A stretch of DNA of 64,000 bases from Janthinobacterium sp. 344. GTDB lineage: Bacteria; Pseudomonadota; Gammaproteobacteria; Burkholderiales; Burkholderiaceae_D. The DNA lies in NCBI RefSeq assembly GCF_900112025.1, contig NZ_FOKL01000001.1, forward strand, positions 1,169,084 to 1,233,083, read 5' to 3'. The position numbers and the translations under genes were made by a program. This document shows positions 47,832 through 50,337 of the stretch, one piece after another; position 1 is the first letter of the stretch, and the number at the start of each line of letters is the position of its first letter. The notes under the pieces are model-generated. The model was given only the letters and a program-made list of their open reading frames with translations. It had not been told where the DNA came from and did no database searches.

Positions 47832-49193
47832 GTGGACTCCAACAACCAAATCAAGCCTGACGAAATCGAGATCCTGATCGTCGAGGACAGCCCGACCCAG
47901 GCGGAGCGCTTGCGCCGCCTGATCCAGTCGCTGCACTACAATGCGCGCGTGGCGGCGAATGGCCAGCTGGCCCTGGCCGCCATCCGCGAACGCAAGCCGC
48001 ACCTGGTGCTGTCCGATATCGTCATGCCTGAAATGAACGGCTACGACCTGTGCCGCGCCATCAAGTCCGACCCGACCCTGCGCGACATTCCCGTGATCCT
48101 CGTCACCTCGCTCAACGATCCGAAGGACATCATCCGCGGCATCGAGTGCGGCGCCGACAATTTCATCCGCAAGCCGTACGCGGAAGACTATCTGCTCAAC
48201 CGCATCAGCCACATGCTGATGAACCAGAAGCTGCGCAAGAACCAGAATGTGGAAATCGGCATCGCCCTGTACCTGGGCGACCAGAAGCACTTCATCAATG
48301 CGGAACGCCAGCAAATCCTCGACCTGCTGATCTCCACCTATGAGCAGGCGGTGCAGGTCAATGGCGAACTGCAGGCGCGCGAACGCCAGGTGATCGAACT
48401 GAACATGCGCCTGGCGCACCACGCGGCCGAACTGGAAACCATCAACCGCGAAATCGCCCTGAAAAACCTGGAACTGGCCGAGGCGAGCCGCATGAAGTCG
48501 GCCTTCATCGCCAACATGTCGCACGAACTGCGCACGCCGCTGAACGCCATCATCGGCTTCACCGGCGCGCTGCTGATGAAACTGCCCGGCCCCCTGACGG
48601 CCGACCAGGACAAGCAGCTCAACACCATCCGCGCCAGCGCGCGCCACCTGCTCTCGCTGATCAACGACATCCTCGACGTGGCGAAGATCGAGGCGGGCAA
48701 GCTGACCCTGTCGATCGAACCCGTGCACTGCCAGGAACTGATGGCCGAGGTGGCCGACACCCTGCGCCCGCTGGCCCAGCAAAAGGGCCTGGCGCTGGAA
48801 ATCGAACTGGGCGAGGCAAGCCAGAAGCCCGCCATCATCGACACGGACCGCCGCGCGCTGACGCAAATCCTCATCAACCTGCTCAACAACGCCATCAAGT
48901 TCACGGAACAGGGCACGGTGCGCATCAGCCTGGCCCAGCGCCAGGAAGACGGCGTGCAGGTGACGGAAATGAGCATCGCCGACAGCGGCGCCGGCATCAA
49001 GGAAGAAGACCAGGCCAAGCTGTTCCAGGCCTTCTCGCAGCTCGATTCCACCTCCACGCGCCACGTGGAAGGCGCGGGACTGGGCCTGTACCTGTGCCAG
49101 AACCTGGCCAACGCCATCGGCGGCGCCCTGTTCTTCAACAGCGACTACGGCTCGGGCAGCACATTTACGCTGGCCCTGCGCAGCAAGGCGTAA
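47832..49193 (+). CDS. Response-regulator/histidine-kinase hybrid (N-terminal receiver)
   Basis: A 453-residue cytoplasmic signalling protein with inverted hybrid order. Receiver domain: about 12-128 (IEILIVEDSPTQ, phospho-acceptor Asp in LVLSDIVMPEMNG, Lys in FIRKPY). A coiled-coil linker spans about 150-215. The HisKA box is FIANMSHELRTPLNAIIGF (about 225-243) and the ATPase domain is about 335-450 with NNAIKF, DSGAGI and GAGLGLYLC. It begins with GTG preceded by AGGAGAGG. No sensor domain or transmembrane helix is present, so the input is likely phosphorylation of its own receiver by another kinase, followed by relay. Confidence 0.91.
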   Translation: MDSNNQIKPDEIEILIVEDSPTQAERLRRLIQSLHYNARVAANGQLALAAIRERKPHLVLSDIVMPEMNGYDLCRAIKSDPTLRDIPVILVTSLNDPKDIIRGIECGADNFIRKPYAEDYLLNRISHMLMNQKLRKNQNVEIGIALYLGDQKHFINAERQQILDLLISTYEQAVQVNGELQARERQVIELNMRLAHHAAELETINREIALKNLELAEASRMKSAFIANMSHELRTPLNAIIGFTGALLMKLPGPLTADQDKQLNTIRASARHLLSLINDILDVAKIEAGKLTLSIEPVHCQELMAEVADTLRPLAQQKGLALEIELGEASQKPAIIDTDRRALTQILINLLNNAIKFTEQGTVRISLAQRQEDGVQVTEMSIADSGAGIKEEDQAKLFQAFSQLDSTSTRHVEGAGLGLYLCQNLANAIGGALFFNSDYGSGSTFTLALRSKA

Positions 49194-49253
49194 TCGCTGT
49201 GCGATGCAACATGCAATTGTGATTTTTTAGCATTTTAGACAGATCGACACCGT

Positions 49254-49300
49254 AGTTCTACTGTATTGCACTGCACCATTTTTAGCGCTATAGTAGAACT
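49254..49300 (+). promoter_or_regulatory. Promoter and 9-bp inverted repeat of the candidate small RNA
   Basis: TTGCAC (49266-49271) and TATAGT (49289-49294) are 17 bp apart, a strong sigma-70 promoter. AGTTCTACT (49254-49262) and AGTAGAACT (49292-49300) are perfect inverted repeats flanking it, the right arm overlapping the -10 box and the start point. Binding of a regulator to both arms would block RNA polymerase. Confidence 0.65.
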
Positions 49301-49367
49301 GTCTCCTCCAATTCGTTCTCCGAACATTGGATTCAGCCCGCGCCGCAAGGTACGCGGGCTTTTTTTT
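49301..49367 (+). ncRNA. Candidate small RNA with anti-Shine-Dalgarno motif
   Basis: A strong promoter ending at 49294 and an intrinsic terminator ending at 49367 enclose about 67 nt with no coding potential. The predicted RNA has an unpaired 5' segment GTCTCCTCC (49301-49309) complementary to ribosome-binding sites, a hairpin CCAATTCG/CGAA-CA-TTGG (49308-49330), and a terminator stem with eight U, the layout of Hfq-type small RNAs. I cannot assign it to a named RNA family. Confidence 0.65.
49335..49367 (+). terminator. Strong intrinsic terminator
   Basis: AGCCCGCG (49335-49342) pairs with CGCGGGCT (49353-49360) around a 10-nt loop, followed by a run of eight T. It lies 140 bp beyond the hybrid kinase gene and could also end that transcript. 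Confidence 0.88.
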
Positions 49368-49377
49368 GCTTGGTGGC

Positions 49378-49498
49378 CATCGAACCCAAGCTGCTGCGCG
49401 GTGCGCCTTGCGGCCGGCGATGCCCACCATACTGTACTGAAGTACGGCTGCGCTTCTCGGCCACAATACCCATCCGCTCGCAATGGTTGGGTTCGATG
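49378..49498. repeat. Element bounded by 12-bp inverted repeats
   Basis: CATCGAACCCAA (49378-49389) and TTGGGTTCGATG (49487-49498) are perfect inverted repeats 121 bp end to end. Inside is a smaller GTAC-TGAA-GTAC dyad at about 49434. It has no ribosome-binding site or credible gene. Size and ends suggest a MITE-like or degenerate mobile repeat, or a long cruciform. The flanks show no obvious target duplication. Confidence 0.5.
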
Positions 49499-49562
49499 TT
49501 GCGGCGCCAAATGATGAAACATCGGCCAGATGTGAACATTAACTACATCAAGTGATTTAGTT

Positions 49563-49582
49563 ATATCAATCGTTTGAGATAT
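49563..49582 (+). promoter_or_regulatory. Candidate TetR operator
   Basis: ATATC (49563-49567) and GATAT (49578-49582) are inverted half-sites separated by 10 bp in an AT-rich stretch, 17 bp before the ATG of the TetR-family gene. Size and position suit autoregulation of the efflux operon. Confidence 0.4.
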
Positions 49583-49599
49583 GTGATTCAATCTGGGGC

Positions 49600-50337
49600 A
49601 TGACTGAAAAAAACATTTCCCATACATCACATGCCGACGACGGGCGCAAGCCCCGTTCCGATGGCGAACAGTCGCGCGAGCGCCTGCTGCATAGCGCCAT
49701 CCGCCTGTTTGCCGAACAGGGCTACGCCAAGACATCCACGCGCGAACTGGCGCAGGCGGCCGGCACGAACGCGGCCGCCATCCGCTATTATTTTGGCGAC
49801 AAGGCGGGCCTGTACCGCGCCGCGTTCGCCCAGCAATCGGCCAACCCGCAAGACAATATCGCCCTGTACGAGCAGCCCCATTTCAGCCTGCGCCAAAGCC
49901 TGGAAGGCTTTTATGCGCAGCTGCTCGCGCCCATGCAGCAGGGCGAGATCGCGCGCGACTGCATGCGCCTGTGGTGCCGCGAGATGCTCGAACCGACGGG
50001 CCTGTGGGCGCGCGAGATCGACCAGAATATCCGCCCCGAACATGAAGCGCTCACGCGCGTGCTGGCGCGCCACCTGGGCGCGCCGGACAACAGCGACGAC
50101 ATGCACCGGCTGGCGTTTTCCATCGCCTCGCTGGCCTTGCAGCACATGGTCGGCGCCGAGGTGCTGCAGACCCTGCGCCCGCAATTGCTGGAAACGCCAT
50201 ACGCCGTCGACACCTGGCTGGCGCGCATGACCGACTACGCGCTGGCCATGGCCGAGGTGGAACGCCGCCGCCTCGCGCCCCCCTCCTCCACACCCCACCC
50301 GCTCAACGACAAGCACAAGGAACAGCATGACGATTAG
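49600..50337 (+). CDS. TetR-family regulator (CecR/YbiH-like, DUF1956 C-terminus)
   Basis: A 245-residue repressor. The helix-turn-helix is at about 22-70 (SRERLLHSAIRLFAEQGYAKTSTRELAQAAGTNAAAIRYYFGDKAGLYRAAF), and the C-terminal ligand domain has the LLAPMQQGEIARDCMRLWCREMLEPTGLW pattern of the CecR group. It is the first gene of the efflux operon, overlapping the outer-membrane factor gene by 11 nt, so it should control its own operon in response to an exported compound. Confidence 0.9.
   Translation: MTEKNISHTSHADDGRKPRSDGEQSRERLLHSAIRLFAEQGYAKTSTRELAQAAGTNAAAIRYYFGDKAGLYRAAFAQQSANPQDNIALYEQPHFSLRQSLEGFYAQLLAPMQQGEIARDCMRLWCREMLEPTGLWAREIDQNIRPEHEALTRVLARHLGAPDNSDDMHRLAFSIASLALQHMVGAEVLQTLRPQLLETPYAVDTWLARMTDYALAMAEVERRRLAPPSSTPHPLNDKHKEQHDD

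Follow-up and report, generated by a model that had tools for sequence, protein, structure and literature searches.

A double-hairpin small RNA gene of Janthinobacterium carries a conserved promoter box and is a candidate member of a proposed PAS-LuxR regulon

Small RNAs (sRNAs) of Rfam family RF02278, which bears the names Betaproteobacteria_toxic_sRNA and "double-hairpin RNAs", have been published for Burkholderia cenocepacia (four members) and Herbaspirillum seropedicae (four members); this and the following background comes from portions of the source papers. The Burkholderia double-hairpin RNAs are ncS03, ncS05, ncS27, and ncS62, and bdhR1 is also called an RF02278 member. Family members in other species have been detected by Northern blot or RNA-seq, with short transcripts in B. 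cenocepacia and H. seropedicae, and published siblings are tied to metabolism and transport genes. Overexpression of ncS27 attenuates growth and its silencing has the opposite effect, while 55 to 80% of the interactions predicted for the double-hairpin RNAs fall at ribosome binding regions. Three Burkholderia members share a "common upstream motif", and the control of sRNA accumulation in B. cenocepacia, double-hairpin RNAs included, is called unknown (both in the available part of PMC5688073); cloned family members are toxic in Escherichia coli (PMC4603805, in part).

Related sRNAs and a related type of regulator have been described elsewhere. In the available parts of the Bordetella pertussis work, the 5′ end of S17/S17S resembles that of RF02278 members, and S17S, which is BvgA-dependent and processed from a longer RNA, directly represses one mRNA. 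The Neisseria metabolic switch regulator RNA NmsRb (RF02877) and its sibling sRNAs have a metabolic role, according to portions of the published accounts. At the acs promoter of Pseudomonas fluorescens, an inverted repeat between −52 and −36 is required by CrbR, a response regulator of the LuxR type (PMC5715377, in part).

The locus described here lies in a window of 64,000 nucleotides from Janthinobacterium sp. 344, the whole of which was compared with Rfam 15. Cmscan returned a single match over any gathering score, to RF02278 (55 bits against a gathering score of 50; model positions 1 through 64 of 64), on the plus strand; Table 1 lists the features of the locus. These data show that the sRNA belongs to the RF02278 double-hairpin family. 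Membership of RF02877 (23.5 bits against a cut-off of 52) and of the anti-hemB family RF02837 (19 against 49.5 bits) was not found, although a UCUCCUC-type stretch and the terminator of NmsRb and its siblings align with the window sRNA. A sequence-only reading of this DNA had proposed a small RNA with anti-Shine-Dalgarno potential that it could not place in a family; the first part was right, and the covariance search supplies the family.

Table 1. Positions of the promoter and RNA features of the sRNA locus within the 64,000-nucleotide window
Feature	Position	Strand	Basis
Putative regulator box GTAGTTCTACTGTATTG, upstream of and overlapping the −35	49252..49268	+	Invariant in orthologues; recurs in genomes
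9-bp inverted repeat of the sequence-only reading, not proposed as operator	Arms 49254-49262, 49292-49300	.	In window, not conserved
−35 hexamer TTGCAC, overlaps box end	49266..49271	+	Sequence; 4/6 columns invariant (38 orthologues)
−10 hexamer TATAGT, 17-bp spacer	49289..49294	+	Sequence; 6/6 columns invariant (38 orthologues)
RF02278 double-hairpin ("toxic") sRNA gene	49300..49367	+	Whole covariance model matched, over gathering score
UGUCUCC at the single-stranded 5′ end, predicted to pair with ribosome binding sites of the GGAGACA type	49300..49306	+	RNA fold
Hairpin 1	49307..49331	+	RNA fold; compensatory changes in relatives, one control not exceeded
Hairpin 2 and U8 tract, intrinsic terminator	49335..49367	+	RNA fold; poly-U 7/8 columns invariant (38 orthologues)

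The hexamers with their 17-bp spacing and the terminator with an 8-bp stem and eight U, as first read, are present in the sequence and enclose a unit of 68 nt, the eight T lying at 49360-49367. The predicted fold (−24.5 kcal/mol, z −4.0) was not equalled in stability by any of 200 shuffled sequences. Fold and model alignment agree on the family architecture of two hairpins, the second an intrinsic terminator, preceded by 7 unpaired 5′ nt. The unpaired UCUCCUCC of the sequence-only reading is shorter in the fold, which leaves UGUCUCC free and places the following UCC inside stem 1. A terminator scan does not list the sRNA terminator; its stem arms are separated by a loop of 10 nt, and the scan permits 3 to 8. 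The window sRNA thus has the two hairpins and the CU-rich, single-stranded 5′ end of the Burkholderia double-hairpin RNAs and, like them, occurs in several copies per genome; unlike S17S, which is processed from a longer RNA, it has a start predicted directly at its 5′ end.

The sRNA lies in the interval 49200-49600. Its neighbours are a gene at 47832-49193, whose product combines response regulator, HisKA, and HATPase domains, and a gene at 49600-50337 for a TetR regulator whose C-terminal domain is of the CecR type. Directly 3′ of the terminator, 49384-49500 is a repeated intergenic element with 42 genome matches including itself; the other copies have 71 to 83% identity across 41 to 130 bases.

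A DNA search with window positions 49195-49375 gave a match in all 40 same-genus genomes, extending into the promoter in 38 of them (E 7.7e-22 or better); in G022 and G037 just the RNA part matches, weakly. The 38 orthologues that were aligned (30 obtained as loci, 8 fetched) were found by similarity, so that pattern selection does not bias them; in alignment A1, by comparison, the invariance of GTCTCCTCC stems from how loci were chosen, by patterns containing it. Mean identity to the commonest base among the 38 orthologues is 64% over the 18 bases that precede the box, 92% over 49250-49263, 98% in the −35, 100% in the −10, 73% from the −10 to the start, and 97% at 49300-49331. The comparison with relatives suggested by the sequence-only reading thus finds locus, stems, and promoter conserved, and the 7 free 5′ nt recur in the folds of 71 of 72 distinct RNAs, the window RNA included. 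For hairpin 1, an alignment of 44 distinct rows contains 23 double-change cells against a shuffled mean of 8.6 (0 of 500 shuffles as high), and the covariation score and the number of paired cells likewise exceed all 500 shuffles; no excess over the shuffles was seen for the count of pairs in which double changes occur (3) or for that of additional pair types (9).

A pattern scan of genome contigs yielded 98 stretches with box and sRNA. The 80 of these that were listed are labelled Janthinobacterium, Massilia, Duganella, Pseudoduganella, Rugamonas, and Noviherbaspirillum, apart from a single Herbaspirillum sp., two stretches from Oxalobacteraceae bacteria, and one from a Burkholderiaceae MAG. 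In 40 of 81 loci compared, a homologue of the window's histidine kinase is encoded on the strand of the box and ends under 800 bp upstream of it, and in 30 of 81 the start of a TetR homologue, on either strand, falls no more than 1500 bp downstream; as these neighbours are kept in only part of the loci, the promoter-sRNA unit is retained where the neighbours are not. One genome (G091) has two boxed sRNA copies, at C1:4265256 and C1:4548972.

The sigma-70 −35 consensus is TTGACA, which the sRNA −35 matches at 3 of 6 positions, while its −10 matches TATAAT at 5 of 6. With this −35, and with the sRNA promoter missing from the list produced by a sigma-70 scan, the promoter does not deserve the adjective "strong" that it had been given. 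Directly upstream lies a conserved box whose core, GTAGTTCTAC, is centred about 44 bp before the start; GTA (49252-49254), TT (49256-49257), and TAC (49259-49261) are identical in all 38 orthologues. A longer palindrome, CCGTAGTTCTACGG, was tried and rejected: its six pairs hold in 34, 13, 38, 38, 38, and 28 of the 38 orthologues, so the box GTAnTTnTACnGTATTG was used instead.

The exact box GTAnTTnTACnGTATTG occurs at three sites in the source genome: the sRNA promoter, C13:88772 (scoA-scoB), and C8:295123 (livGF-type ABC operon). At all three promoters it ends with the TTG of the −35, and the distance from box start to −10 is 37 bp, with the three −10s (TATAGT, TATGCT, and TATTAT) picked by eye. 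The same box at the same spacing suggests one regulator for scoAB, the livGF-type operon, and the sRNA. ScoA and ScoB (3-oxoacid CoA-transferase) score over the TIGR02429 and TIGR02428 cut-offs. The box at C8:295123 precedes two ABC transporter ATP-binding genes, the first of which has a branched-chain-type C terminus (PF12399) and scores below the curated LivG and UrtD cut-offs. A choline-dehydrogenase-like GMC oxidoreductase gene (L114 2189-3814, minus strand) adjoins this operon, as it does in all 10 regions fetched for livG.

The arrangement recurs in relatives. With up to 2 mismatches, CGTAGTTCTACGGTATTG gives 108 sites in 39 of the 40 genus genomes, against 9 for the reversed control, and 32 of the 40 have three sites each. 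Of 116 family genomes, 75 carry the exact box, with 139 sites in all (reversed control, 5). The 10 regions chosen for PAS-LuxR, ScoA, and ScoB all have the three proteins at the box, and the 10 chosen for livG all have LivG, LivF, and the GMC oxidoreductase there. Among 17 further box regions, four have livG orthologues (L260, L262, L263, and L272), one has scoAB (L273), three have the sRNA (L267, L268, and L269), and one has a weak, distant LivG match (L270); in the other eight, none of livG, scoAB, or sRNA was found nearby (L259, L274, L261, L264, L265, L266, L271, and L275). Box and sRNA occur together, as the exact pattern, in 19 of the 116 family genomes, with two more seen that have CGTCTCC, which makes the sRNA no more than a lineage-specific component of the regulon. 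An exact box of the form GTATTTGTACTGTATTG is present at G001:C1:2347160, G017:C20:28456, and G031:C8:45700, that is, in 3 of 6 genus genomes, and a one-mismatch version lies at C5:33184 of the source genome; the two such regions that were fetched (L259 and L274) have no nearby match to scoAB, livG, or the sRNA. This site may be a fourth regulon member or may be due to chance.

Divergent from scoAB is a gene for a 188-aa protein with PAS_9 and GerE domains (herein PAS-LuxR). The best NCBIfam score of its helix-turn-helix (HTH) domain is to FixJ, under the cut-off of that model, and its PAS part (residues 6 through 123) matches residues 2 through 119 of PDB 3mqo (E 7.5e-42), a 120-residue chain named by its depositors "Transcriptional regulator, LuxR family"; the likeness is one of sequence match and name. 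The gene (E 1e-30 or better) is present in 79 of the 116 family genomes, 75 of which have an exact box somewhere, compared with none of the 37 genomes lacking the gene (Fisher p about 4e-26, a value that ignores kinship). In 73 of the 79 the exact box lies in the divergent gap of the gene, −4 to 149 bp upstream of the matched start and always on the opposite strand; in two further genomes the single box is elsewhere, at livG in G123 and at scoAB in G075, and in G090, G050, G067, and G047 no exact box was found. All 19 genomes with box and sRNA as the exact pattern fall among the 79. The protein is encoded (E 1e-45 or better) in 23 of 300 genomes of the order, and 14 of the 23 belong to other families; in the three of these 14 that were seen as loci, the gene is also divergent from scoA, and the intergenic sequences are related without being identical.

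We consider it likely, from these sequence comparisons, that the PAS-LuxR protein activates the sRNA together with genes for ketoacid use, and that the RNA in turn lowers translation of mRNAs that match it. Location and co-occurrence make the protein divergent from scoAB the best candidate for the regulator. It would bind the box as a class II activator once its PAS domain senses a signal linked to the use of short-chain ketoacids; activation is suggested by position, because the box lies directly upstream of a poor −35 with its core near −44. The RNA would then use the unpaired UGUCUCC of its 5′ end to bind target mRNAs at their ribosome binding sites and reduce their translation, by analogy with its Burkholderia and Bordetella relatives. 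In such a carbon-source regulon the sRNA would serve as the repressing arm, with sibling copies under other promoters.

It is unlikely that the box is bound by a different regulator of LuxR/FixJ or acetate type, such as a CrbR-like response regulator, and that the PAS-LuxR gene is simply one of that regulator's targets. The CrbR repeat occupies a similar place in the acs promoter, and the CrbS/CrbR system resembles the proposed regulon in combining a LuxR-type regulator, an inverted repeat directly upstream of a promoter, and the use of short-chain acids; moreover, a box in a divergent gap leaves the identity of its binder unproven. Against this, the exact box is missing from every family genome without the PAS-LuxR gene, and the CrbR system differs in being built on a response regulator, in its motif sequence, and in that the available part of PMC5715377 mentions no sRNA. 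The CrbR ACTU motif was considered as an identity for the box and rejected, since the ACTU sequences printed in that part, such as TACTACCATCGTCGAAT, differ from it (by eye).

A role of the box as a repressor site, at which PAS-LuxR would silence the three promoters until a ligand appears, has a similarly low probability and is compatible with binding by another regulator. Occlusion is possible, since the last bases of the box (49266-49268) are shared with the −35. Proteins with a GerE-type HTH near −40 usually activate, however, and both the sRNA −35, with half of its positions off consensus, and the placement of the core upstream of it are as for class II activators. Much less credible is that the RNA is half of a toxin-antitoxin pair, which the Rfam family name and the toxicity of cloned members in E. 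coli would suggest: all 40 genus genomes (the source genome included) have RF02278, with between 3 and 12 matches apiece, the published siblings are linked to metabolism and transport, growth on entering stationary phase was only modestly impaired in the available part of the Bordetella S17 work, and the Rfam scan of the window returned no antisense RNA. That the perfect 9-bp inverted repeat AGTTCTACT/AGTAGAACT is a flanking operator, its right arm covering the −10 and the start as the sequence-only reading had it, is extremely improbable, for although the repeat exists in the window and has a single genome occurrence (searched with gaps of 20 to 34), it is whole in just 2 of the 38 orthologues, none of the five columns between the −10 and the start, which make up most of the right arm beyond the −10, is invariant, and the left-hand box alone is conserved. 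What the conserved box suggests is an activator, and not a repressor acting over the start site.

A candidate target of the sRNA is livG, whose ribosome binding site complements UGUCUCC: the site is GGAGAC in all 17 fetched orthologues and GGAGACA, the exact complement, in 10 of the 17. GGAGAC accounts for 10 of 28 GGAG sites in one count and 7 of 48 in another, with a crude choice of start codons; the former count gives a hint that sites of this kind are frequent, in which case livG would not stand out.

The source genome has nine RF02278 matches, eight of them above the cut-off. No PAS-LuxR box was seen by eye at the other eight copies, and the genome contains only the three exact boxes; the window sRNA is in this respect unlike its siblings. 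Seven siblings, on C10, C9, and C20 (L001 through L006 and L008), have another upstream element, roughly GCRGCATMATGCAC (by eye), before TGTCTCC. The siblings seem to be split between two promoter kinds. In four of seven folded siblings a second CUCCUCC lies at the top of hairpin 1, where the window sRNA has UUCUCCGAA. Five copies lie within 8.3 kb on one strand (L009, C10:281178-289480, in region C10:275000-294500), among genes for an Asp-Al_Ex permease, MetE, a pentapeptide-repeat protein, an MFS protein, a LysR regulator, and an S41 protease; the Burkholderia double-hairpin RNAs, by contrast, are not in tandem according to the available part of PMC5688073.

The RNA itself belongs to a known family; the new part is the box, its regulon, and the candidate regulator, none of which was found in the open papers searched. 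With moderate confidence, we propose that a multicopy anti-Shine-Dalgarno sRNA family has had one of its copies placed under PAS-LuxR in Janthinobacterium, Duganella, Massilia, and their relatives, together with a 3-oxoacid CoA-transferase and an ABC operon. The RNA would be the repressing arm of this metabolite-sensing regulon and may also damp livG, a member of the same regulon. If true, PAS-LuxR would be the first transcription factor for an RF02278 double-hairpin RNA in the literature searched, the relative S17 being BvgA-dependent. Provided that the box is correct, sRNA control would become directly testable in easily grown environmental bacteria, through one candidate regulator gene and three target promoters, and the locus would show how sibling sRNAs with the same pairing end can be divided among different signals.
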